This document shows positions 1,858-55,300 of a DNA stretch of 64,000 nucleotides, one piece after another. Under the pieces are notes generated by a model. It was not told the origin of the DNA. It was given only the letters and a program-made list of their open reading frames with translations, and did not search any database. This DNA comes from Gibbula magus. Taxonomy: Eukaryota > Mollusca > Gastropoda > Trochida > Trochidae. Each line of letters opens with the position of its first letter. Positions within the stretch are counted from its first letter, which is position 1. The translations under genes were made by a program, and so were the position numbers. The DNA is taken from NCBI GenBank assembly GCA_936450465.1, contig OW388291.1, forward strand, positions 73,314,436 through 73,378,435, read 5' to 3'.

Positions 1858-3890
1858 TTTTTAGCTCATCAGGCCTGAAAGGCCCGATAGGCTTATGGCA
1901 TGGGATGGCGTCCGTCCATCCGTCCGTCCGTAAACTTTTCACTTTTTCGACTTCTTCTCCAGAACCAATAACTCTAGAGAGCTGAAATTTTATGTACAGA
2001 CTCCTTGGCCAATGGGAATTCTAAATTGTAGATTTGGTGACCCTGTGACCCCAAATAAGGGCCCCAGGGGTCATAACCTTAAAAGCTATTTTCATCTTCT
2101 TCTCCAGAACCAATGACTCCAGAGAGCTGAAATTTTATGTACAGACTCCTTGGCCAATGGGGATTCTAAATTGTAGATTTGGTGACCCTGTGACCCCAAA
2201 TAAGGGCCTCACAGGCCATTACCTAAAATCATGTTTTCATCTTTTTCTCCGGAACAAAAAGACCTAGAAGGCTGTAATATTGTATGCAAACTCTTTAGCC
2301 AATGGGGATTCTAACTTGTAAATTTGGTGACCCTGAGACCCCAAATATGGGCCACAGCCTAAAAAACCTGTCGAAATTGAATTTTGAACTGATATTTTAT
2401 GTGCACTTCTTTCACTTTATTTGAAATGTATGTCGACTTGAAAGAACAATCTACATTATGGACATGTTTGTCAAATTGATGTAATCAATGTGAAATGAGA
2501 ACTGTTGAATAGCCTATGAAATGAAAATTGTGACAAGTCATAAAGGACTAAATTGAAGAGGAGTTAAGAATTCTTTTATTTTACAAGAGATATGTGAACT
2601 GCATATGACTGGTGATGAAATGATAAGATAAGATTATTTTCATCTTTTTCTCCAGAACGAAAAGACCTAGAAGGTTCTCATGTTGTGTTAAGAGTCTTTA
2701 GCTAATGGAGATTCTAAATTGTAGATTTGGTGACCCTGTGACCCCAAATAAGGGCCTCACAGGCCATTACCTAAAATCTTGTTTTCATCTTTTTCTCCAG
2801 AACAAAAAGATCTAGAAGGCTGTAATATTGTATGCAAACTCTTTAGCCAATGGGGATTCAAACTCGTAAATTTGGTGACCCTGTGACCCCAAATATGGGC
2901 CACAGCCTAAAAAAACCTTTGAAAATGAATTTTGAACTGATATTTTATGACACTTCAACCACTTTATTTGAAATGTGTGTCGACTTTAGATAACAATCTA
3001 CATTGTGGACATGTTTGTCAAATTGATGTAATCAATGTGAAATGAGAACAATTGAATAGCCTATGAACTGAAAATTGTGACAAGGCATAAAGGACTAAAT
3101 TGAAGAGGAGTTAAGAATTCTTTTATTTTACATGAGATATGTGAACTGCATATGACTGGTGATGAAATGATAAGATTATTTTCATCTTCTTCTCCAGAAC
3201 GAAAAGACCTAGAAGGTTGTCATGTTGTGTAATGAGTCTTTAGCCAATGGAGATTCTAAATTGTAGATTTGATGACCCTGTGGCCCCAAATAAGGGCCTC
3301 ACAGGCCATTACCTAAAATCTTGTTTTCATCTTTTTCTCCAGAACAAAAAGATCTAGAAGGCTGTAATATTGTATGCAAACTCTTTAGCCAATGGGGATT
3401 CAAACTTGTAAATTTGGTGACCCTGTGACCCCAAATATGGGCCACAGCCTAAAAAAAACCTTTGAAAATGAATTTTGAACTGATATTTTATGACACTTCA
3501 ACCACTTTATTTGAAATGTATGTCGACTTTAGATAACAATCTACATTGTGGACATGTTTGTCAAATTGATGTAATCAATGTGAAATGAGAACAATTGAAT
3601 AGCCTATGAACTGAAAATTGTGACAAGGCATAAAGGACTAAATTGAAGAGGAGTTAAGAATTCTTTTATTTTACATGAGATATGTGAACTGCATATGACT
3701 GGTGATGAAATGATAAGATAAGATTATTTTCATCTTCTTCTCCAGAACGAAAAGACCTAGAAGGTTGTCATGTTGTGTAAAGAGTCTTTAGCCAATGGAG
3801 ATTCTAAATTGTAGATTTGGTGACCCAGTGGCCCCAAATAAGAGCCCCGTAGGCCATTACCTAAAATCCTGTTTTCATCCAGAACAAACT
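1858..3890 (+). repeat. Pearl-like repeat with 545-bp tandem units
   Basis: The element opens with a palindromic head (CAGGCCTGAAAGGCC near 1869) followed by a GTCC microsatellite at about 1908-1932. Short units follow, containing 'GGTGACCCTGTGACCCC'. From 2211 a longer unit is tandemly repeated: 2211-2758, 2759-3300, 3301-3848 and a partial copy to about 3890 (548, 542 and 548 bp). The same family lies in reverse orientation near 13620-14953 and 35160-36137, with a degraded copy at 38470-38890. It is non-coding, and the layout fits non-autonomous Helitron-like elements of bivalves. Confidence 0.7.
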
Positions 3891-13600: not shown

Positions 13601-16600
13601 AGTTTTTCCTACAATTAATTATTTTTCTGTACTGGAGAAGATGATGAAAATAGGTGTGATGTCACAATCTCATATAGCTACTTCTTTTATAGTCCTATGT
13701 TATCACCAGTCATCACTAGTCATATTCAGTTCACATATCTCATGTAAAATGAAAAAATTTAATTCCTCTTCAAGTTATTCCTTCAAAGGGTATTCAATAG
13801 TTCTCATTTCAAATAGATTCACATTAAACAAGTCCATGATGTAGACATCTATCTCATTTCTTGTTCCTATTGAATAAAATTAACTGCAAAGTTAATAGAA
13901 AACTAAATCAGTTATAAAGTATAAAATATGATATAAATAAGGTATACCAAATTGACTCGTACTGGAAATTCTCATTAATTAATTAATTAATTCTCCAAAT
14001 AATTACACAATATCATGAGATATTAAAAAACTCCATTATTTACTCTTAAATTACAAAGAACATAATATTAGATTTAATAAAAGATTCTGTATTAAATCTT
14101 TAGAATACTTTTAGACTTGTGTACCTTTATCAGCAAATTCACTTGCAAAATACAAATAATTACTCATATGTGAAATGTGAGACAAAGATAAAATATGACT
14201 TATAATTTTTGTTAGACCTCCAATTCTAAGTTTTTAATTCTAAATATCTCTTTTTCATCAGACATATTATATTCTCAAAGCATATGTTAGAACTCTCACA
14301 TCAGAAAAATGAAATGCCTTTAACTCAGCTGTTTTCTTTAAAATTACCTCCCTTACCTACTTACTGATTGAAGTGCACATATAATCTCAGAAAGATGCTG
14401 TAAACTGAAATAGGCTTTTAGGTTATGATCCCTGTGACCCATACTTGGGGTCACAGACTCACCAAATTTACAATTTAGAATCCCTTACAGCCAAGGAGTC
14501 TGTACATAAAATTTCAGCTCGCTAGAGCCATTGGGACTTGAGATGAAGATGAAAATAGCATTTTAGGTCATTGCCTCTGTGACCCAATATTTGGGGTCTC
14601 ACTGTCACCAAATTTACAATTTAGAATCCCCTTCAGTCAAGGAGTATGTACATAAAATTTCAGCTCTCTACGTTCATTGGGACTGGAGAAGAAGATGAAA
14701 ATAGTTTTTTTTAGGTAATGACCCCTGTGAGCCACACTTGGGGTCACAGGGTCACCAAATCTACAATTTAGAATCCCCTTCAGCCAAGGAGTCTGTACAT
14801 TAAATTTCAGCTCTCTGGAGTCATTGGTTCTGGAGAAGAAGTCGAAAAAGCGAAAAGTTTACGGACGGACGGACGGACGGACGGACGGACGGATGGACGG
14901 ACGCCATCCCATGCCATAAGCCCATCGGGCCTTTCAGGCCAGATGAGCTAAAAAGGTGACATGAACCCCGCCGCAAATTATTACTTTAAATAATGTCAAG
15001 ATCAGAAAAATTAACTCGGCTCTGAATTTTCACTAAAAGAACCACTGGTGTAAGATAAGGATGAGAATTCAATGAACAGTTCTTGTGAAATCGATTCCCC
15101 TGACAAGCTTAACATGTCGACAAACTCAAAGTTCCACTGTGACATTGAGAATAATGTCAAGATCACCAAAATCAAATCAGCCCTTTGTCTTCCCTTGAAG
15201 AAGCTATGAAGACATGAAGAGAATCCAGTGAATGGGTCTTGAGATATCCCGCTGACAAGGGTAAAATGACAAAGTCTCGTGACCTTGAAATAAAGATCAA
15301 GGTCACAAAACTCTGTAGGAACATTACTCTCCCTATGATGAACCCATATGCAACATATGAAAAGAATTCAGTAAATAGTATTTGAGTTATTTCATTTCGT
15401 ACGGACGTACGGACGGACGGAGCCGAATACAGCGGGGGATAATAAATCAATTAGTGGATCAGAGCCTTTGTCTCAATGCTATACTCACTTTGTCTCCATG
15501 TTAAAATATAATATTGTTGCCAAGATCACTTTGAACAATGTGGCCAATAAGAACTATATTATCACATAATCAAGGAAGTACAGTATGAAATGTAAAGAGA
15601 AGGAAACCCATTTTCATCAAGACATTATCATTATATATATATTGAATGACTTCACCTTCTTCTTGGAAGATTCAACCAGCGAGTCTCCATCGTCAGACAG
15701 GTTGGCGACCCACACCTCCGTGCTGTCCCAGGGCTGCCAATGATACAAAGGGAGGAAACTATGACCTATTGTTCATCTGACAGTAAGGCATGATCATTAA
15801 CTCTAACACCTGTACCCATTTAGTGCATCTTGATACAAGAGGCAATAGGTTCCACTTCTTAAACAACACAAAAAAGATATCTATATATTGTAAGTAAAAT
15901 AGTAAACCAATAATGTTCAATCATTTTAGGAACCTTTTTCAAAATATGAAGTTTTGCCTGGAACAGGTCCAGCATGTTGAAGAGAACACATTTGGTACAT
16001 AGGGGTGTAACAATAGTCCTTGTGGGTCAATAGTCACGCATAATGGTACAGTTCATCAGATTAGACCTACCATGTTGGGGTGACACCACTGCATCCAGCA
16101 CAGTTGTTTCCCATCAGGAGAGACCTCCGGACAGCTGTAGAAGTCTGCCCCGCTCACCTGTCAACCAATATAATTTCCTCATTCAACCTCTATTTAAAAT
16201 ATCCAGTAAATCTATGTCTATATATATTTCAGTAGCGAACTTTTCTTAACAGTTTACATATATTTGTTTATAGGTAATTTTACAAATTTCTGTATGCTTC
16301 TGGAAATGTTATTGTGTGTCTGAGAAAAAGGTTTAGGAACATGTCCGCTCCTTGGAAAAAGTTACTGTGAGACAGTCTAAAGCCCTGTTTATACGGCGAG
16401 CGTTTGCATATGAATAAATCATTACACATATATATGCAAATTTGCTCATATGAGTAAAGTTCGCCGTATGGATACATTTGCACATATGTATATTTTACTA
16501 CTGTAAGCAAATTTTTCAATACCATAAGCAAATTTGCACCTAGTCAGGGGCAGGTGCATAGATTTACTACCGTGAGTAAATATGGTATTTTCACTATTCT

Positions 16601-23536: not shown

Positions 23537-25085
23537 TTATTGTTCGGGTTTTTTTTTAGCACGTTTTATCTGTCGTTCCTCCTTTTCCTTTAGTTGTTTC
23601 TCTTTTAGCCGCTTCGCTTCCCGTTTATCGTTCATAACTTGCTCACTTGTCAAATTCTGTGACCTGTGATGACACGTCTTTTTGATTTGCAGGTAGATTG
23701 TGTGGACTCAACCTTTGGAATTGAGAAGATTTTGTCTTACTCAGCATTCCAATTAACGAGTTTGGAACCACCATTGGACAGATCACTGAGTATGGAAGTA
23801 GCAGAGAACTCCTCAATTGAGACGCAACAGGGGGTGACATTGGGGAAATTGGAAGGTCTACTTCGTCCTGGAGTAAAGAAAGCGCTAAGTTCGCCAAATC
23901 AGCTTCTTCTGTTTCAGTGTTCAATTCTGCTAATGTTTTTTTAGCAGAAATTGAAGCTGAAGTTGAAGAAACTGATTCGCTGACTGCAGAAGGAGAGATG
24001 GGATCGACCTGAGGCTTATCAAAACTTGTCAAAGCGCCAGTCGTTGCTTGAGGTTGAGTTTGTGAAGATGCAGATGTCTCATTTGGCTTATCGAAAGGGG
24101 GGCTTGGTGTGAAGAGAGACTCTGATACAGCTTTTGGGTTGAATGGGTGGATACCTGTGGATCTAAAGCCTGCAATGATGTTTGATTGATTGAAAGATTC
24201 ATTCCACGCAGTTTTGAACACACGGGGCCATGTGGTTTTATTTATGGTGTTTGTTGGGTGAGATGCGAGAAACTCAGAGCAAGATCTGTTGTATGCTTTT
24301 GAGAAAGGACCGAAAACAGATTTGTCGAGAGGCTGCAGTGCGTGTGTAGTGTGAGGGGGTAAAGCCAAAATGGTGATGTTTTCCTTCACCGCATACTCCA
24401 ACAAACCAATAACTACATGTGAGCTATGAGAATCCAAAATAAGCAGTTGTGGTCTCTCCGGACCACAGTTTGGAAGAAATTAAGACATTGGAAAACCATT
24501 CTTGTCCCAGAATATCGTTCATCCAAGCTTTCTCTTGATAGGTCCAGATGGTTTCTTCTGGAGCATCGAGAGTGGCAAAGGAGTGTAGTGACCGCTGAGT
24601 TTTGCCTTTGACTACGCACATGGGTGGCATAGCACACCCACCTGCGTTGACACAAGCCAAAACTGTTATATTTTCTCTCGAGTTCGAAACACGACTCAAG
24701 AGACTGCGCCTGCCCTTCCCTGCAAGAACCTTTGAAGGTGTGTGTTCAAACTGTTTCCCTGTTTCGTCAAGATTCCAGACTGAGTGGGGCTTTTTAGCTA
24801 GACCTAAGTCAGTGATAATATCTCCTAATTCTTTAAAATATTTCTCAACAACAACAGAATTGAGCATTCGTGCCCTCGAAGTTGACAACTTTTCTGGTCG
24901 TCTCATCACAAGCTCTGGGTGACGTTTCTTCAACCCTGCAAACCAGTCGTTACTAGGGATTCCATGCTTAAAAACTTTGTCGTCTGTAAGACGGGAAACC
25001 TTTAGCAGCAGCTGCCTCTTGTTTATTTGAAAATGATTAACGGAATAAACGATTTTAAGTAATACAAAATCGTTTCCTTATTTTT
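23537..25085 (-). pseudogene. Broken pogo/Tigger (DDE_1) transposase
   Basis: Translated pieces read like a CENP-B/Jerky/Tigger transposase. A segment with KHGIPSNDWFAGLKKRHPEL fits the end of the DNA-binding part. VWNLDETG carries the first catalytic Asp, LLILDSHSSH the second, and ALQPLDKSVFGPF the third. Residues such as FRSTGIHPFNP mark the end of the catalytic domain. At least two frameshifts interrupt it: one near 24480, just before the second Asp, and one near 23660, before a Lys/Glu-rich tail that stops at 23537. The usual N-terminal helix-turn-helix is not seen. It is inactive as it stands. Confidence 0.8.
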
Positions 25086-29936: not shown

Positions 29937-32222
29937 ATGGATTATCTCAAGTCAATACTTGGTGATGGAAAATCACAGAAGTCACAGTTAGCAACCGGTC
30001 AAGAAAGTCAACAAAAAGAAGAGAGAAATGTTGAAAAAATAAATTCAAAATCTCCTGAAATCATTGGAAGCAACAAAAACAATTCATCTCAAATTGATTT
30101 AGCACCTTCTCTTGATAAATGGGACTCATTAGAGAAAAGTTTCAGGGGTGCAGCAAAGAGAGTTATCCCCCTTGAAGACGACGATTGTCTCAGTTGCAAG
30201 CTGATTGGCACGACTGCGCTGTGGGGGTGTAGTGCCTTCATTTTGAGAGGAGGTTATAAATTCCGAAAGACTCAAACTGGTTTCAAGAAGGTCACTTCAT
30301 TTATGGGCTATTCAACATTTGCTTTTGGTAAGGATAGTAAATTGTAATTAAAAACTTTCGAAAAGGGACAGTGCGAGAAGGGGTTGGGGGTGTTTTTAAT
30401 AAAGACAAAATTCGGGGGGATACTTTATGTTCTTATTCCTTATATTCTTAGTTCTATTAAAATTAACACAGTTTGAGGTAATATTTTGGTGGTTTTAGAT
30501 TCGAAAAATGCATTCAAAAGAAAACCAATGTCAATGAATTCATTCATTGTCAATACAAGTGGGAAAAGTTACTGTTGATCAGTATAATAATTTATTGTGT
30601 TGCAAAGATGAATAATCTAATAATAAGTGAGTTTAATATTAAGTTGTATATATACAGCGTTTCCTGAAATTTTAGCTCGTCAGGCCTGAAAGGTCAGATA
30701 GGCTTATAGCATGGGCTGTCATCCATCAGTCTTCATCCCCCCAAAGAACCAGTAATGCTTGAAAGCTAAAATTTTGAGAAATATCTTCTTTGTTGCATGG
30801 AGACGCATATTACATTTCATTACCCTACTTCCAAAAATAAGGGCGTGGCAGGGGTGCAATCTTGTGGTGCACCATTTTGATGACTAAGATATCTCCCTTT
30901 GATAAAACTGTCAATGTAATCGTATCTGCTGGTCCCTGAAAATATTGGAATATCTTGAGCCAGGGTGCAATCCTGGATTATTCCATTTAACCAGTTCAGA
31001 GATGGATCCTGTAAATTGACTACCAAGAATTGTCTGGCAAAAATAATAAAATAATATCAAAAGGAAAAGTTTTATTTATTTTCAAACATGTCTATCAATC
31101 AACAAATTATAACAGCAAATAATAATTGAAATTGTATTGTAACATGATTTCGGTGTATCCTTGATTCTGATTGGTTGATTTGCCTATGTTGAATGACAAT
31201 GAATACCCGCAAATTACTTGGGACGAATCACCGCGAACATATACATCATGTTCACAAGATCCGACCCGACTCAAAATTTTATTTTTCTATTTCTCTTAAT
31301 ATGTGCCCCTTACTCAAATATGACAGGTGGCATTGTCATTTTCTAACTTGTGTATAGCAGTATATATAATAGGTAACAAATAACTCTCAAACTTAATCAA
31401 TTTCAAGTAAATAAAATGTTTTCAACTAGTAAGATTTCTCCAAGTTTGACGCCTTCTTCCATGCGGCTGTGTTTACCGAATGCCGTGACCATGGCATGAC
31501 GTCATAGTGATCAATCGTTTTGACGTCACAATGCTAGCGTCATTGTCACAATGGGTTAGGGCAAGTTTAAGATTTTTGTTCCTAGGTATTTTACTGTGCT
31601 GATGTCGTAGACAAATGTTTATCGCCATCTAAAAGGATACGTGAATATTGTGAAGTGAACATAGTCGAGCGACACTGTTTGAGCTTATGTGTAAATTGTC
31701 GCTAATGTACAAATTACGCCGAGTATTTACATTTGTTTTGACCCGAACACACCTCTTACAAAAATTGACAGGCGCGAAGTCCTTTCCACTCAGATAGGTA
31801 CAAAAAGAGAGTTCGTTTCAAAACGTCTGATAACTAACGGTCATGTTACAATATCGATAAATAGTTGCGTTTGTAAAATTTCCGGGATTCATTGCTATTC
31901 AACACCCGCAAATTTCAGCGTTTAAAACCTCCGGCTAACGCCGTCGGTTTTAAACTAAATTTGCGGGTGTTGAATAGCAATGAATCCCGGAAATTTTACA
32001 AACGCAACCATTTATCTTATAAACGCATTTGTTTAATTTTTATTTTAGATGATTAATTAAACTTTTTTGCTATTTCCAGGTTTGTTTCTGCTTGGAACAG
32101 CAAGATTGTTTGACTTGAGTATATTTGATAAAAAGACGGACAAAACTTTTGGTCAGATGACAATGGAGGATTGGCAAAAGCTCAAAAGTCTCTTCAGTAA
32201 AGAGCCAGAAAGCAAAGAGTGA
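29937..32222 (+). CDS. DMAC1/TMEM261-like small membrane protein, 2 exons
   Basis: Exons 29937-30327 and 32080-32222 join through GTAAGG...TTTCCAG in phase 1 and give 177 residues. A hydrophilic, Lys/Gln/Ser-rich N-terminus (1-80) precedes DDDCLSCKLIG with a Cys84-x2-Cys87 pair. A first membrane span follows at about 88-104, then a basic loop GYKFRKTQTGFKK, and a second span at about 121-141 crossing the exon junction. The Cys-x2-Cys before two closely spaced spans is the pattern of DMAC1 (distal membrane-arm assembly component of mitochondrial complex I). The human protein is shorter (about 110 residues), so the N-terminal extension is lineage-specific or the call is wrong. The start ATG has an in-context AAAATGG. 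The intron carries a 160-bp palindrome. Confidence 0.6.
30674..30740 (+). repeat. Truncated head of a pearl-like repeat (DMAC1-like intron)
   Basis: TTTAGCTCGTCAGGCCTGAA, a Gly-Cys-rich head related to 1858-1910, is followed by only a short related stretch. It appears to be a truncated copy. Confidence 0.5.
31856..32016. repeat. 160-bp palindrome in the DMAC1-like intron
   Basis: Left arm from GATAAATAGTTGCG and right arm to CGCAACCATTTATC are reverse complements over about 60 bp with one mismatch. The centre (GTTTAAAACC...GGTTTTAAAC) is also palindromic. It lies 64 bases before the exon 2 acceptor, so pre-mRNA would form a long hairpin next to the splice site. Confidence 0.75.
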
Positions 32223-32596: not shown

Positions 32597-35500
32597 AACT
32601 GTCAAAAAATAGAGCCATGGCCTCTGTAGCTCATCAGGAGATAATAAGTGGGGTATGTTATGGAGTGGGCTTTATAGCAATGGTCAGATAATGGAATGAA
32701 GTAATAAGAATCTAGGCAGTGAAACGATTAAAGCAGTTTAAAAATATTTTGTTACCATAACTTTGCCAATCTGCTATTTATATGTGTTGAAAGAGCAACA
32801 CAAAGTTGCACAGAAACATGTTATTTGTTATAAAATGTTAGTATGACAATATATGCATAGATAATAAATGCGAAAGATGTTTTTGTTTTAAAGTGTTTGT
32901 TTTGTAGCTTGGAAATAAATTGCTGGTATCAAACATATTATAATGTGGTGGAGAGATAATACTATTTTTTAATATCCTACACACATTATATAATAATGAA
33001 CATACAATTCTTTGCATACAGTTCACCACTGTCAGCTAGTACAATATCGGCCTGGGGCTGTAGAAGAAAATGAAAAAAACCTTTTTAGGTCATGACCCTT
33101 GCTAATTATAAGACATTGCCAAGTCATCAATTTTTTATTATCAAAATTGGTTACACATTAATCCACATTGATTATATATATCATAGAGCTTTTCATTATA
33201 TTGTTTTAATTCTTAATTGCATTCTGGAAATATCAACATTTATTAGCAGCTCCGACTAAGTCGGAGCTGCTATCAGTTTTTGCGCAGTTTCTGTCGCCGC
33301 CGCCGCCGCACGCGCGTTTTGTATTCGCTATTACTTTTTTCCTAGAGGGTTTTGAGAACTCATATACATAACTTCTTACTTATGCCCCTGGGGAATTTTT
33401 TTGACATGTTCATATTCAAGGTCAAAGGTCAAGGTCACAAGTTCTGAAATCGCTAAAAAAATCCTTGTAAACACGATAACTTGAAAAATATTTGTACTAT
33501 CAGGCTCTTATTTGGTGTACATTAACTATGGAGAAAGGCCAAGATTTGAAAAGGTTTTCGCTAACATCCGTCAAAGGTCAAGGTCACAGCGAGGGCACGA
33601 CTTAAGCATGCTTTTGCGAAAATGTCTTATTTCAACTATTAACACTTTAAATCATTAAATGATTGTTATACACAATGAAAAGTGATCACTGATTGTGTGA
33701 CCTTGAATTTAAAAGGTCAAGGTCACGAAATATGGTCAAGGTCACCAGTTCTGAAATCTCTAAATAACCTTTTCCCAAGGTTTTAACACCTCATATACAT
33801 AGCTTCTTTCTTATAAACCTGGTGGATGATTTTGACATGTTCACATTCAAGGTCAAAGGTCAAGGTCATGAGTTCTGAAATCGCTAAAATAATCCTTGTA
33901 AACACGATAACTTGAAAAATATTTGTAGTATCAGGCTCTTATTTGGTGTACATCAACTATGGAGAAAGGCCAAGATTTGAAAAGGTTTTCGCTAACATCC
34001 GTCAAAGGTCAAGGTCACAGCGAGGGCACGACTTAAGCATGCTTTTGCGAAAATGTCTTATTTCAACTATTAACACTTTGAATCATTAAATGATTGTTAT
34101 ACACAATGAAAAGTGATCACTGATTGAGTGACCTTGAATTTTAAAGGTCAAGGTCACGAGATAGGGTCAAGGTCACCAGTTCTGAAATCACTTAATAACT
34201 TTTTTCCATGAAGGTATCAACACCTCATATATATAGCTTCTTTCTTGTACACCTGGGGAAACATTTTGATATGCTCACATTCAAGGTCAAAGGTCAAGGT
34301 CATGAGTTCTGAAATCACTACAAAAATCCTTGTAAACACGATAACTTCAACAACTTCTGTGCTATCAGCCCCTAACTTGGTATATATCAACTATGGAGAA
34401 AGACCAAGATTTGAATACGTTTTTGCTAAAATCTGTCAAAGGTCAAGGTCACAACAAGGTCACAACTTAAGCGTGCTATTGTGAATATGCCTTATGTTAA
34501 CAATGAGCACTATTGAGTCATTGCATGATTGTTATACACAATGAAAAGTAATCATTGATGGTGTGACCTTGAACGTTAAGTTCAAGGTCATGAGATTTTG
34601 GTTAAGGCAATGTTAATCTTTTGATCTAATTTTGAAATCAGAAATAGTTTTTAAGAACAAAGTTGTGAAAAGTGACCCCAGTGATGATTCAACTTGTTAG
34701 AATAACTTGAATAATGAAAAACATTTTGTCCAAAAAAATTCCAATTTTATTTATGCTGAGGAGAAGGCGGAACAGGGAAAGGCGAGACCCAAAGTTTCGG
34801 AGCTGCTCTGCTTTTGCGGTGTCCCGCAAACGCTCTTCTAGTTACATAATGAATAGGAGGCTCAGTTTTTGAAAATCCCATTTCTCATAGGCTCCATTTC
34901 AATATTTGATAAAATGGTGATATTCTATGAATAAATTCTTTTTTTTTAGAATCAGTTTAAGACTAAAGCAGTCTCGCACACAGTCTACAACACAGTGCTG
35001 CACAGTAGTTTGAAGTAACCTGAAACCTCTGTGTTGTTATCAGTTTTCATCCTTCTGCCAGGCAGCGGTCACCCCCAGGTCAACACAATGCAATTACATA
35101 ACATGCAGACACTGGACTCACAGCCAGTAAAATTTATATGTTAGATGTTGTTTTTCCTACAATTAATTATTTTTCTATACTGGAGAAGAAGATGAAAATA
35201 GGTGTGGTGTCACAATCTCATGTAGCTACTTATTTTATAGTCCTATGCTATCACCAGTCATCACCACAGTCATATATATCTCATATAAAATAAAACAAAT
35301 TTAATTCCTCTTCAAGTTATTCCTTCAAAGGGTATTCAGTAGTTCTCATTTCAAATAGATTCACATTAAACATGTCCATAATGTAGACATTTATCTTATT
35401 TCTTGTTCCTATTGAATACTGGCTGAAGTGCACATAAAATCTCAGAAATATGGTGTACATTGAAATAGGCTTTTAGGTTATGATCCCTGTGACCCATATT

Positions 35501-36137
35501 TGGGGTCACAGGCTCACCAAATTTACAATTTAGAATCCCTTACAGCCAAGGAGTCTGTACATATAATTTCAGCTCGCTAGAGCCATTGGAACGGAGAAGA
35601 AGATGAAAATAGCAGTTTTTGTCACTGCCTCTGTGACCCATATTTTGGGTCTCACGGTCACCAAATCTACAATTTAGAATCCCCTTCAGTCAAGGAGTCT
35701 TTACATAAAATTTCAACTCTCTACGTTCATTGGGACTTGAGAAGAAGATGAAAATAGCTTTTTAGGTAATGACCCCCTGTGAGCCACATTTGGGGTCACA
35801 GGGTCACCAAATATACAATTTAGAATCCCCTTCAGCCAAGGAGTCTGTACATAAAATTTCAGCTCTCTGGAGTCATTGGTTCTGGAGAAGAAGATGAAAA
35901 TAGCTTTTTAGGTTATGACCCCTGTGACCCACATTTGGGGTCACAGGGTCACCAAATCTACAATTTAGTATCCCCTTCAGCCAAGGAGTCTGTACATAAA
36001 ATCTCAGCTCTCTGGAGTCATTGGTTCTGGAGAAGAAGTCGAAAAAGCGAAAAGTTTACGGACGGACGGATGGACGGTTGGACGGACGCCATCCCATGCC
36101 ATAAGCCCATTGGGCCTTTCAGGCCTGATGAGCTAAA
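32597..36137 (-). repeat. Composite repeat downstream of the DMAC1-like gene, copy B
   Basis: It is collinear with 12716-14954: the same AGAGCCATGGCCTCT start, the same order of motifs, and the same ACGG microsatellite (36059-36090) and AGGCCTGATGAGCT end. It is interrupted by the Helentron-like element at 33244-34842 and lacks the extra 490 bases present in copy A. Near its right end, 145-148-bp units containing TGGGGTCACAGGGTCACC repeat about four times (35470-36060). Confidence 0.7.
33244..34842 (+). mobile_element. 1.6-kb Helentron-like non-autonomous element
   Basis: The 5' end is a 12-bp stem hairpin (AGCAGCTCCGAC-TAA-GTCGGAGCTGCT, 33245-33271). Its first 11 bases are repeated inverted at 34797-34807, just upstream of a second hairpin (TTTGCGG/CCGCAAA, 34813-34830) and a terminal CTAG (34838-34841) followed by T. 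This asymmetric arrangement (terminal-subterminal inverted repeat, 3' hairpin, CTRR-like end) is diagnostic of Helitron2/Helentron elements. The empty site is preserved in copy A at about 13230 (ATTTATTACATAATG). Inside are three units of about 432 bp (starts near 33420, 33851, 34284) rich in AGGTCA. There is no Rep-helicase ORF. Confidence 0.8.
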
Positions 36138-36657: not shown

Positions 36658-37760
36658 TATACCTCCGCTACGAAGTAAGCGGGGGTATATAGCGGTCATT
36701 CCGTCCGTCCGTCCTTCCGTCCGGTCAACTTTCTCAAAAACCGTCAAAGGTACATCAACCAAACTTTGTACAGATGTTAACCGTGATCTTCCGATCGCGC
36801 ACAGACAATTTTCCATGGAAACGTCACTTTTTGAACTTAGTTTTATTGTGTTCAATGGGGACAAGTTTTCTCAAGTACTGTTCAACCTAGGTGAATGAAA
36901 TTTTGGTTGTGAGTACTCATGACCATACTCTTCATCGAGTTCGAAAACAAGTTCCGAAATATTATTTTTTACGGAGTTATGGCCCTTGAATCCGAAATTG
37001 AACTTAGTACCAGAAGAACTGTGATGCTCCAATGGGGAAAAATTTTCTCGGAAACTATTACATCTAGGTGAATGAAATTTAATATGGAGGTAGTCCAGAT
37101 GATACTCTTCATCGAGTTCGAAAACCAGTTCCGAAATATTATTTTTTACGGAGTTATGGCCCTTGAATCTGAAATTGAACTTAGTACCAAAAGATCCGTG
37201 ATGCTCCAATGGGGACAAGTTTTCTCGGAAACTATTACATCTAAGTGAATGAAATTTAATATGGAGGTAGTCCAGATAATACTCTTCTTCGAGTTCGAAA
37301 ACCAGTTCCGAAATATTATTATTTACGGAGTTATGGCCCTTGAATCCGAAATTGAACTTTGTACCAAAAGAGCTGTGATGCTCCAATTGGGACAAGTTTT
37401 CTCGGAAACTATTACATCTAGGTGAATGAAATTTAACATGTAGGTAGTCCAGATAATACTCTTCATCGAGTTCACAGTCCAGTTCCGAAATATTATTTTT
37501 TACGGAGTTATGAAGCCCTTGAATCTGTAATTGAATTTGGTACAAATTACCGGTGTGATGCCCTAATTGGAAAAATTAAGTTACCTGAAAAATATTACAT
37601 CTGGGTTAATTAAATTTTGTAATAACAGTCAGTACCTAAAATTATTTTTGACAATATTATGATACTTGAAGCTGTTTTTTAAACATAGTAACCTTCACAT
37701 CTATAATTCTCAATGGACGGATAGCGGATGGCGGGGGTATGTGAGCCATGCTCACTTTTT
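36658..37760 (+). mobile_element. Pearl-like element with four 177-bp repeats
   Basis: A 5' hairpin (TATACCTCCGCT...AAGCGGGGGTATA, 36658-36690) is followed by CCGTCCGTCCGTCC, then four tandem units of exactly 177 bp (landmark GAGTTC at 36937, 37114, 37291 and 37468). It ends with GCGGGGGTATG near 37732. Because 177 is a multiple of three, a 224-codon minus frame stays open with 59-residue repeats. That frame is a by-product of periodicity, not evidence of a gene. Confidence 0.7.
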
Positions 37761-49300: not shown

Positions 49301-52300
49301 AAATAAAGAAGGACCAAAGTCAACAGAGATACTTGGTCAAACTGCAATGGATGAACCTAAGATGGCCTCCACTCCTGTAGGTCAATCTCATTGTAAGACT
49401 GTGTCCGGACACGGAGTATCCGAGACGGTGTCGACCCCTGCTGGTCTCTCCTCCAGCTGGGACCTCCTGCCCTGTGATAGTCCCTGCTTCAATCTGCAGC
49501 TGGAGTCTTCCTCAGACATTTCTAACGATGTGAACCCCAGCATGGGAAATAGTCTCTTAGATCATCTTCATTCAAGGGATGGCATGTCTGAGTCCAGAAA
49601 TGAATCACTTGGTGGCACCTTGAACAATGATGATCCTTTGCCGGAGTTGAATTTTTCGAGAAAAAGAAAAAGGTCAACTGAAAATGTTGAGAAAGAAACA
49701 AGTTCTTCAACAACCAGTCAACTATCACGGAGTTCAACTGAGCACATTGTTAGCACTGAAACCCCAAACAAATGTAAAGGAATGACTGAAAGTTCAAACA
49801 AGACCCCTTCACGTAAACAGCGACACTCAAGAAGAGGAAAAGTTTCACCAAATGGTATGTTTTACATTTAAGCTCCTAAATTAATTAGCGCCAAACTATC
49901 TGAGTGACCTAATTACACAACTTGTAAACAAGGGATTAAACTACTTAGCTTACATATTACCGGTAATGCAAGCCTCAGATATTTGTAACTTTTATCAACT
50001 CATGTTGATATATTTGATACCAGAAGACGCAAGGGTAAGATTCTATTTATCATCCAAATTCATTTTATTACGTTTCAATGAAAATAGTGTACATCTCTGA
50101 GCACAGCTCTGCCATTTGACTTCCAATGCGGTGATGTCATAGCATTGTGATGTCATCATGATTATGATGATGATGTTAAAGCATTGTGATGTCATGGAGT
50201 TAACGGTAACAGGGCATTGTGCAAAATCTACTGCAAAAACGATATCTCCTGTGGAACACAGTTTTCGATTATAATATACATATGATATCTATGCAAAAAT
50301 GTATTTAGTAATATATATTTTTTTCATTATAAAATGACACCAAGCACCTGTTTGTATTGGTTAAAATTACTGTCAGTTTACTGCAAGTTAACAGGTACTT
50401 TATAGGAAGAGGTCATGCAGGATTGTGTCCGTTTCGTTTGACTTGAATCTCGGAGTACCCTAAATATATTGTCATATATTTGTTTTTTTTATTTATTTAG
50501 GCATTTACATATATGTCAACTCCTTGAATATTGATTTTCCCTATATTACTTCATTACTACAGAAAATTTACTTTCTGTTCATCTTTTGAAAAGAACTATC
50601 ATAAGCATTAGTAAAAAGATAGCTTCATTCAAAATTGGAAATATCGGGTACTTGAATCTGGTAATAATCCTAGGGTTATCAAATTCAAGATTTTGGACTC
50701 CTACTACCTCTTAACACAAAACAAATGAACACACTTCTCTATTATCCAGGACCTCCAATCAGTCCCCTGACAGCCTTCACCTCCTTCCAGTTCTGTGTCA
50801 GTCTCTACACAGGCCGTGTCTATCTCTGCTCTCAGGTAAAGTGTCAATCTCTACGCAGGCCGTGTCTATCTCTTCTCTCAGGTAAAGTGTCAGTCTCTAC
50901 ACAGGCTGCGTCTATCTCTTCTCTCAGGTAAAGTGTCAGTCTCGAAACGGGCCGTGTCTATCTCTTCTCTCAGGTAAAGTGTCAGTCTCTACACAGAGCG
51001 TGTCTATCTCTTCTCTCAGGTAAAATGTCAATCTCTACACAGGGCGTGTCTATCTCTTCTCTCAGGTAAAGTGTCAGTCTCTACCACAGTCGTGTCTTTC
51101 TCTTCTCTCAGGTAAAGTGTCAGTCTCTACACAGGGTGTGTCTATCTCTTCTTTCAGGTAAAGTGTCAGTCTCTACACGGGGCATGTCTATCTCTGCTCT
51201 CAGGAGAGTGTCAGTCTCTACATGGGCCGTGTCTATCTCTTCTCTCAGTAAAGTGTCAGTCTCTACCACGGCCGTGTCTATCTCTTCTCTCAGGTAAAGT
51301 GTCAATCTCTACACAGGGCGTGTCTATCTCTTCTCTCAGGTAAAGTGTCAGTCTCTACCACAGTCGTGTCTTTCTCTTCTCTCAGGTAAAGTGTCAGTCT
51401 CTACACAGGGTGTGTCTATCTCTTCTTTCAGATAAAGTGTCAGTCTCTACACGGGGCATGTCTATCTCTGCTCTCAGGAGAGTGTCAGTCTCTACACAGG
51501 GCGTGTCTATCTCTTCTCTCAGGTAAAGTGTCAGTCTCTACCACGGTCGTGTCTATCTCTTCTCTCAGGTAAAGTGTCAGTCTCTACCACGGTCGTGTCT
51601 ATCTCTTCTCTCAGGTAAAGTGTCAGTCTCGAAACGGGCCGTGTCTATCTCTTCTCTCAGGTAAAGTGTCAGTCTCGAAACGGGCCGTGTCTATCTCTTC
51701 TCTCAGGTAAAGTGTCAGTCTCTACACAGGCCGTGTCTATCTCTTCTCTCAGGTAAAGTGTCAGTCTCTACACAGGCCGTGTCTATCTCTGCTCTCAGGT
51801 AAAGTGTCAATCTCTACACAGGCCGTGTCTATCTCTGCTCTCAGGTAAAGTGTCAATCTCTACGCAGGCCGTGTCTATCTCTTCTCTCAGGTAAAGTGTC
51901 AGTCTCTACACAGGCTGCGTCTATCTCTTCTCTCAGGTAAAGGGTCAGTCTCGAAACGGGCCGTGTCTATCTCTTCTCTCAGGTAAAGTGTCAGTCTCTA
52001 CACAGAGCGTGTCTATCTCTTCTCTCAGGTAAAGTGTCAGTCTCTACCACAGTCGTGTCTTTCTCTTCTCTCAGGTAAAGTGTCAGTCTCTACACAGGGT
52101 GTGTCTATCTCTTCTTTCAGGTAAAGTGTCAGTCTCCACACGGGGCGTGTCTATCTCTGCTCTCAGGAGAGTGTCAGTCTCTACATGGGCCGTGTCTATC
52201 TCTTCTCTCAGTAAAGTGTCAGTCTCTACCACGGCCGTGTCTATCTCTTCTCTCAGGTAAAGTGTCAGTCTCTACCACGGCCGTGTCTATCTCTTCTCTC

Positions 52301-55300
52301 AGGTAAAGTGTCAATCTCTACAAATGGCGTGTCTATCTCTTCTCTCAGGTAAAGTGTCAATCTCTACACAGGGCGTGTCTATCTCTTCTCTCAGGTAAAG
52401 TGTCAGTCTCTACCACAGTCGTGTCTTTCTCTTCTCTCAGGTAAAGTGTCAGTCTCTACACAGGGTGTGTCTATCTCTTCTTTCAGGTAAAGTGTCAGTC
52501 TCTACACGGGGCATGTCTATCTCTGCTCTCAGGAGAGTGTCAGTCTTTACACAGGGCGTGTCTATCTCTTCTCTCAGGTAAAGTGTCAGTCTCTACCACG
52601 GTCGTGTCTATCTCTTCTCTCAGGTAAAGTGTCAGTCTCTACACGGCGTGTCTATCTCTTCTCTCAGGTAAAGTGTCAGTCTCTACACAGGGCGTGTCTA
52701 TCTCTTCTCTCAGGTAAAGTTTCAGTCTCGAAACGGGCCGTGTCTATCTCTTCTCTCAGGTAAAGTGTCAGTCTCGAAACGGGCCGTGTCTATCTCTTCT
52801 CTCAGGTAAAGTGTCAGTCTCTACACAGGCCGTGTCTATCTCTTCTCTCAGGTAAAGTGTCAGTCTCTACACAGGCCGTGTCTATCTCTTCTCTCAGGTA
52901 AAGTGTCAGTCTCTACACAGGGCGTGTCTATCTCTTCTCTCAGGTAAAGTGTCAGTCTCTACACAGGGCGTGTCTATCTCTTCTCTCAGGTAAAGTGTCA
53001 GTCTCTACACAGGCCGTGTCTATCTCTTCTCTCAGCTTCAAAAACTTGCATGATTATAGCCTTTTTGTCAATAGTTGTCAATAATTGTTGAAAAAAAGGA
53101 TGACATTCCACAAACTAGTAACTTCCTTATTTTGTAAGATAAAAAATGTTTTGATGTGTGAAAGTCATCCTGGTAATATACCGTAAATGTTGGTTTTGAC
53201 ATCTGAAACCTAAGATTTATCACATAGTTTAGGCACAAGACAATAGGTAGTTTGGGTAAAAAATACCATTACCAGTACCATTACAAGTTCAGTCCCATAG
53301 CATGACAATTGAATAGTCAGTTCTTTTTGTCTTTGTCTTTGTCTTTGATGATGTCATTTTTTATCTCAAGAAAGGAAAACATTTTGCATTGTCAGTAACC
53401 CAGTTACCAATCTTTAATACAGGACGGAGAGTCCTTGCATGAGAACTTCCTGCCGCTGGACGTCGAGATGGGCAACATGGAACTGCTCCCCTCCGTACTG
53501 CATCACCCTGGCAACCTGCGCCTCGTACAGAAGTTTGTGCGCGAATGGAACAGGTCAGTGTTTTGACTTTAAATTTATTTAGTTTTCATATTGATTTTGA
53601 GTGAGTTTGACAATCTTGTGCCCATTAGCAGCAAGCCTATTGATTTTCAAAAATATAGCTTTGAGATATAAATGCTAACTTTGACCATTTCTGTGTGTTA
53701 TGACCAGTTTAACCACTTTTATGCAAATGTTTTGTTGTTAAAATATTTTCTGTATTTTTGAAGTCATTCTCTCATTCAAAATTTCACCAATCCTAGTTAT
53801 TGCACTGTTCATTACCAGTCATGATAGCTATGTTACTGATAGTGTCTGAAATCAATTGTGTAATATTTGTTCAAACACAGCCTGACAGAAACAAAGAAGC
53901 GTTTGATTGTGAAGCGAGGCATGGTATTCACAAGTCCCCTTGTGGCCTACGATGAGGTTAGATCAGGAAAAGTCCTGTCGACACAAAGACATAAAACAAA
54001 GGTATGCATTTACTCACAGATCTTTCCAACTCACATTTTCTTACAGTTTGAATAGATGATTAAAATGTTCACCTGCCAGTTTCAAAATATATGATAGATG
54101 CTTGTACCATTGGTCGGTAGGCAGTTGATTTAAGTATAACCAGTCGGCTGACTGAGGCATAATCTAGCGTACACAGAGAATATAGCAACATGAGAGTATA
54201 TTTGCTTTGAAGTTATGGAAATAAGCTTGCAATACATATTGATAAAATATTATGTTAACTATGCTGCAGGAGGATGCAGCAGCTGATGCAGTGAGGGTGG
54301 CTGGTTCACTGAAAGGAAGTGTGAGAACAATATCAAGAAGAGGCTCCGCGGGTCAGGGGTCAAACACAACGCTGGAACAGAGTCCTTCGGGTAGAGGTTA
54401 TGTGCAGGTAAGTCCAGACTCATCAATCAACATGTTCGTGTGAGTAATCTTAACTGCAACCTCCCCCGCCATGTATAACTTGATTCGGTCTCTATGACGG
54501 GTCTTGCTGCATTTCTTTGCTTGAGATTTCTAATCACACTACCATGTCCAGGTGCCGCATTGTGATACAATGGCACAGAAAAGGTGATAAAGACTTGCAC
54601 AAGGTATACCTTGAAGAGGAACTTGACCGCTTATTGATTTAAATGCTTGTTGGCAAAAGTAATCTTTTGTTTGCAATACACACAAAAAGGAAGTCCATTA
54701 TATCAAAGACAGGTGTCGTCAGTGTATGAAGTGAGGCTCGTCCTACAGCATGTAACCTGGTAACTTTTTGTTTGGGTTGGTAGTTTTTTGAGGTTTTTAT
54801 TTGATATATCTATGAAAATGAACAAAATCATACCTTCAGGCTGGTAACTTTTCAAGCTTATTTCATACACTGGTGGTAGTCAATGTTGTTTCTCACACAG
54901 GCAGTGACATCAGAGGGCGTGCCACTCTGCTTGAACTGTCAGAACCCGTATGAGAACTCACTCCTGAACAAGTCCACCATCACTGACTCCAGCAACGCGT
55001 GGAACACAAGGTTCTGTTCTGCACCCTGTATGGATAAATACTGGGTAGGTTACTCAGATCTTTCATACTAACACTTGGCCCCAGTTTCATCTTAGATGTT
55101 GTATGTCTAAAACATGACCGTTTTTTATTAGCAAGAGCTATCATAAGTTGTTTGTAGAGAAGGGTTTCAGCATGAGTTGACATACATTGTGGTGAAGCTC
55201 TTCTTTGCTCAATCAAACTGCAGTACTAGTAATAAAATAATTTTTTTGCCCTAAAAAAGAATTGTCCAATCTGTGGCTCGTTGAATAAGACCCAACACGG

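Follow-up and report, generated by a model that had tools for sequence, protein, structure and literature searches.

What becomes of an intron when the end of the preceding coding exon, together with its 5' splice site (donor), has been copied into it dozens of times? This question is raised by a ZRANB3 gene of the gastropod Gibbula magus that lies on the + strand of a 64,000-nucleotide stretch of DNA (hereafter the window; GenBank assembly GCA_936450465.1, contig OW388291.1, positions 73,314,436 to 73,378,435). Here, the final 41 bases of the exon at window positions 50750-50835, followed by GTAAA, form the unit of a minisatellite for which Tandem Repeats Finder reports a period of 46, 48.9 copies and 91% matches between 50795 and 53035. 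Splitting with the anchors CTCTCAG or CTTTCAG yields 49 units, namely 41 of 46 bp, six of 45 bp, one of 44 bp and the 41-bp exon copy; no unit exceeds 46 bp and hence no unit end was overlooked. Both this unit and a copy number of about 49 had been proposed in an earlier reading of the sequence (hereafter the original prediction) and are confirmed. It is moderately likely that the array is a passive minisatellite which grew at an exon end and is removed within a single intron, with splicing errors that would largely cancel themselves.

The identity of the parent sequence depends on the gene model around it. A partial ZRANB3 protein of 1465 residues was joined from reading frames, with some exon borders inferred and the 5' exons outside the model. 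It matches the Pfam domains SNF2-related, helicase C and HNH, with a RanBP zinc finger below the Pfam cut-off. The C-terminal portion of the model matches the solved chain 5mkw of ZRANB3 (E 3.3e-30). The parent exon joins the next coding exon in frame (both reading frames are given in Table 1) across an intron of 2587 bases (50836-53422), and the joined sequence aligns without gaps to a stretch of human ZRANB3 (35/92 identical). Since the alignment runs ungapped over the join, the border 50835/53423 is well placed and the exon end is real coding sequence. The conservation of this exon in ZRANB3, judged by the same human stretch, implies that the copying ran from the exon into the intron.

The internal order of the array points to growth in large steps. 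Units 0-21 align with units 22-45, which indicates that about 1 kb of array, an exon-end copy included, was duplicated as a block. With the five bases GTAAA prefixed to unit 0 for alignment purposes, the two blocks align at a cost of 24, in comparison to a mean of 72.9 for 1000 shuffled orders (standard deviation 4.9, minimum 56); for this test, as for the P values on change counts given below, the stretches were partly picked after looking. Among the aligned unit pairs, 13/21 are identical. Unit 22, the counterpart of the exon end, shows one difference in 41 bases, whereas unit 21, with which block 1 closes, agrees with the exon end at all 41. The 21 pairs present 12 column differences that postdate the duplication, a number too small to be decisive, with one of them in the acceptor half of the unit and four in the single pair 17/41, which is probably misaligned. 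A block duplication that takes in the exon end is ordinary minisatellite growth, with the exon end as the parent. In total, 25 distinct unit types occur among the 48 intronic units. Most of the variation between units resides in columns 17-28 (16/27 merged changes vs 7.0 expected), whereas the pyrimidine tract and the CAG are nearly uniform. A 26-base piece of the unit, searched with up to three mismatches, gives 42 matches, every one of them inside the array and on the + strand, as opposed to none in 100 shuffles.

Each copy ends in sequence that resembles a splice junction. All 49 unit ends carry CAG, 41/49 read CAG/GT and 38/49 read CAG/GTAAAGTG (the slash marks the junction). The expectation that almost every unit would show the junction motif therefore stands for CAG itself and was too generous for the complete junction. 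The eight unit ends without a donor continue with GAGAG (four), TAAAG (two, both with a GT persisting one base leftward), ATAAAG (one) or, for the last unit, CTTCAA; a donor without CAG occurs in 0/49 units, in contrast to the eight with CAG and without donor. At 53035-53045, GTAAA is missing after the last unit, and the right-hand end of the array thus does not reveal where the intron originally started. Column 39, within the pyrimidine tract, holds T in 42/49 units and G, the state of the exon, in 7/49, in agreement with the predicted difference between most units and the exon; either state may be the older one. A published operational motif for recursive sites is Y5+N0-4YAGGT (PMC10156609). 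This motif matches 38 times in the array, 15 times elsewhere on the + strand and 14 times on the - strand, none of the latter within the array. GT units with T in the tract match it and the three GT units with G, including the exon's own copy, do not. At 38/49 unit ends, a pyrimidine tract and YAG are thus joined directly to GT, and the predicted layout, a 3' splice site (acceptor) and a 5' splice site at one and the same point, is found.

The quality of these sites was assessed with generic frequency tables, which underlie all scores given here. As 3' sites, the 49 unit ends score 9.8-13.7 (median 11.8), with 39/49 above 10.5. Nine inferred acceptors of the gene range from 4.3 to 10.5, and the true acceptor at 53422 reaches 7.3; a tenth acceptor (45112, score -20) was left out as its boundary was wrongly set. 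Scored as 5' sites, the 41 units with GT lie at 7.6-7.9, near the median of the 14 inferred donors of the gene (7.2, range 3.6-12.7), four of which outscore the array donors. Outside the array, AGGT sites with a 3'-site score of at least 10.0 and a 5'-site score of at least 7 amount to 0/253 on the + strand and 1/209 on the - strand. No donor scoring at least 6 was detected in the remainder of the intron (53036..53422).

If these donors were used and nothing further happened, the consequences would be severe. There are 48 later unit ends, 40 of which carry GT, and splicing any of them to the next exon produces a premature stop before the HNH domain (48/48 cases). Unit end k=1 shifts the frame and leads to a stop 21 codons beyond the exon end, k=2 to a later stop, and for k>=3 the stop is a TAA inside the array, in the third unit. 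The statement that the use of a later unit usually shifts the frame was accordingly too mild, and the array would not be neutral if its donors were used without further splicing. A protein-coding use of the array was considered and rejected: among frames of at least 45 amino acids, no stop-to-stop frame within the array exceeds 90 amino acids on either strand, and a stop interrupts every frame that continues from the exon into array sequence.

How such an array could be tolerated may be explained as follows. A minisatellite would expand by tandem and block duplication from 41 exon-end bases and five intron bases. The exon end would already have been acceptor-like, with a pyrimidine tract and CAG directly before its own 5' splice site, and most copies would consequently be dual-specificity junctions. 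The array would leave with a single intron, mostly from 50835 to 53423, without any job of its own. If donor k were used, the retained copies would span from donor 0 to an acceptor and could be removed later, restoring the normal mRNA; if acceptor k were used first, a donor would be regenerated in most units. The proposed reason for its tolerance is that wrong splice-site choices remain open to re-splicing.

The scope for such self-correction was explored with a toy model in which splicing events are drawn uniformly at random, with 400 runs for each setting and a minimum intron of 40, 60, 80 or 100. Events were taken either in any order or with a donor joined to the next exon first. At these four minima, the share of normal product from the real array is 68, 51, 48 and 43% in the any-order mode, while the donor-first mode returns 86, 56, 54 and 33%. 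An array of donors only yields 1.5-3.7% in both modes, while an array of acceptors only yields 2.2-2.8% in any order and, trivially, 100% when its single donor goes first. When all donors but the last are intact, the normal product amounts to 77, 59, 56 and 49% in any order and to 100, 55, 57 and 44% in the donor-first mode; in comparison to this array, the lost donors of the real one cost 0-14 points. This outcome follows logically from the sequence if all sites are used equally, and it is no demonstration that such correction occurs.

Several points weigh against a passive array with self-cancelling errors. The toy model assumes that all listed sites are usable and equal. In its runs, 25-37% of the product retains 46 nt at minimum introns of at least 60, as this remnant is too short for an intron, and 13-24% retains 387 nt in the any-order runs, as the last unit lacks a donor; both products would be costly if the sites were used. 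A strict branch site (yUnAy) lies upstream of just 1/38 motif junctions and a relaxed one upstream of 32/38, which renders acceptor use doubtful, although the true acceptor itself has neither a strict nor a relaxed match upstream. In mammals, the exon junction complex represses the re-use of such sites, according to passages of PMC6224609, and where it acts this repression would weigh against re-splicing. An adaptive loss of the last donor was considered separately and rejected, as it represents one case for which the toy model shows a cost in one regime (the +387 nt product).

A further reading, in which 41 near-identical dual junctions would make the array 'splice-idempotent', with most splicing orders leading to the same mRNA and an exon end plus donor that can be copied many times, is rather unlikely. 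If it held, 46-nt recursive-splice (RS) exons would follow one another in a chain, mostly with an exact tie between the donor regenerated by splicing and that of the RS-exon itself, and errors would pool in the +46 nt product, too short to re-splice, and in the +387 nt product of the donor-less last unit. Should 41 near-equal donors and 48 intronic acceptor-like sites that outscore the true acceptor still yield the right mRNA, the locus would be a natural test of splice-site choice, of the re-splicing of joined RNA and of harmless intron growth from an exon end. If only the outer pair of sites is used, it would be an ordinary minisatellite in an unusual place.

Functional recursive splicing, in which the junctions would serve as ratchet points or chained 46-nt RS-exons for stepwise intron removal, is quite improbable, even though 38/49 unit ends fit the published motif and fly RS-exons are similarly short (about 50 nt in passages of PMC8605326). 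Changes were counted as distinct column/state differences from the consensus, which sets a lower limit on the events. On this count, 3/31 changes fall in the acceptor-like half of the unit vs 12.1 expected (P 0.0003; merged, 3/27 vs 10.6, P 0.0014). This deficit, which would favor recursive splicing, becomes weaker when columns 17-28 are omitted (3/12, P 0.049; merged, 3/11, P 0.08). The pyrimidine columns alone behave in the same way (2/14 vs 9/14, P 0.018; without columns 17-28, 2/14 vs 3/8, P 0.31). Selection on the acceptor half is therefore suggestive in this within-array comparison and not robust to the omission of columns 17-28. The donor bases show 5/31 changes vs 4.0 expected and are conserved no more than the remaining unit; the independent donor losses number about four, too few for a test. 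In addition, an intron of 2587 bases presents no long-intron need. A very long intron is usual for recursive sites and not strictly required, with a broader range reported in passages of PMC10156609. The eight acceptor-like ends without a donor could trap an intermediate, though at the small cost seen in the toy model, and their presence next to 0/49 donor-only units would agree better with array acceptors that are rarely used than with a ratchet. Of the original prediction, the recursive-site layout thus holds, while the ratchet function is disfavored by the short intron, the unconserved donor bases and the donor-less units, for which a passive array offers the better fit.

It is unlikely that the array acts as a poison element, whose competing sites would divert transcripts to premature stop and decay with the copy number as a dial on the ZRANB3 level. 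The stops at all 48 later unit ends and the array acceptors, the lowest of which outscores the true acceptor (9.8 vs 7.3), would suit such a role, yet in the toy model many of these errors would be cancelled by re-splicing. A further proposal, by which the pyrimidine-rich intron RNA would be a landing pad for a PTB-like repressor masking the decoys, draws on a presumed PTB preference, on CTCTTCTCTC, found 38 times on the + strand of the intronic array and absent from the rest of the window, and on TTCTCT, with 19.1 per kb in the array vs 1.2 per kb in the whole window. Such enrichment is a trivial outcome of how the unit is composed, the array lacks CTCTCT, and the proposal is very improbable. 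There is also a slight chance that assembly errors account for part of the copy number or arrangement: long near-identical blocks, with 13/21 unit pairs identical, are typical of assembler trouble, but the 25 unit types occur in a structured order and both flanks are intact and in frame. An RNA structure that loops out the array was examined and rejected, as no folding advantage over shuffled sequences was seen for four units (52760-52943; z 0.14). Inverted repeats of at least 14 nt in 50700-53450 are limited to one pair, outside the array.

Among the closest known systems is the minisatellite of human IFI6, with in-frame 12-bp units lacking a pyrimidine tract. This IFI6 (6-16, G1P3) minisatellite was reportedly described by Turri et al. 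in 1995 (NAR 23:1854). In both genes, tandem short units begin in the exon and bear the donor. The ZRANB3 unit differs in its 46 bp, not a multiple of three, in that all alternative ends lead to a stop and in that each unit is acceptor-like. Two downstream repeat units of IFI6 serve as donors and give rise to three mRNA species, as stated in excerpts of PMC4526556.

A second parallel is the published model, supported in vivo, by which introns arise when AGGT segments are duplicated in tandem (passages of the review PMC3443670 and of PMC4974935, the latter on ATP2A1 and Hellsten 2011). According to the same passages, the duplicated AGGT provides both donor and acceptor, and the copy can be removed with the mRNA unchanged (PMC4974935; PMC3443670). 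Fission yeast has gained introns built of 24-nt tandem units, one of two being said to need further study, in excerpts of PMC3629103; the yeast proto-splice site is given there as AGGC and in the passages of PMC4974935 as AGGT. The ZRANB3 array likewise has AGGT in the duplicated segment (41/49 unit ends). Its segment, however, occupies an existing exon/intron border, where 49 units enlarge the intron already present. Since the unit includes donor bases, the intron probably pre-existed, in which case this would be intron growth rather than intron gain.

Exon ends that act as acceptors are termed distal exonic recursive or dual specificity splice sites in passages of PMC10156609, and the ZRANB3 exon end similarly reads as a 3' site abutting a 5' site. 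Such sites are single and lariat-supported, in contrast to the array of candidate junctions in ZRANB3. Fly and vertebrate recursive sites and RS-exons share with the array an acceptor that adjoins a donor and a short RS-exon followed by a donor (excerpts of PMC8605326, PMC6110457 and PMC6224609), while ZRANB3 has 38-41 candidate junctions around one 2.6-kb intron. The ZRANB3 case combines known elements, namely an exon-end minisatellite, dual units and a high copy number. No description of such an array in ZRANB3 was found among the titles and opening abstract lines listed in the literature searches, none of which used that gene name.

Table 1. Positions of the ZRANB3 exon-end array and its surroundings in the window.
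Feature	Position	Strand	Basis or remark
Coding exon of ZRANB3 ('exon 12' in the original prediction), parent of the array; last 41 bases are unit 0	50750..50835	+	Open frame PPISPLTAFTSFQFCVSLYTGRVYLCSQ
46-bp minisatellite, 49 units (0-48); unit is exon end plus GTAAA	50795..53035	+	Tandem Repeats Finder, unit splitting
Block 1, units 0-21; unit 0 is the exon end itself	50795..51798	+	Unit-level alignment with block 2
Exon-proximal donor GTAAAG	50836..50841	+	Sole unit end (1/49) leaving the frame open into later exons of the model
Block 2, units 22-45, duplicate of block 1	51799..52897	+	Unit-level alignment
Last unit, acceptor-like end retained, without donor (CTCAG/CTTCAA)	52990..53035	+	Unit splitting
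Rest of the intron, ordinary, up to the true acceptor	53036..53422	+	Frequency-table scan
Next coding exon	53423..53553	+	Acceptor gttaccaatctttaatacag; exon at 53423 reads DGESLHENFLPLDVE

Elsewhere in the window, an open frame at 24424-25077 on the - strand contains a DDE_1 transposase domain (Pfam, E 1.4e-9) and represents a piece of a transposable element. On the + strand, a frame at 29883-30347 matches Pfam DMAC1_Dmo2 (E 1.2e-6), and a further frame at 32061-32222 may be the next exon of the same gene. Other tandem repeats comprise a 431-bp unit present 2.9 times (33333-34596) and a 177-bp unit present 3.9 times (36853-37543), the latter array being traversed by an open frame of 234 amino acids on the - strand. 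Finally, 145-bp satellite arrays, by eye a single family, occur in both orientations at 1944-2357, 2637-2901, 3179-3443, 14408-14848 and 35463-36045.

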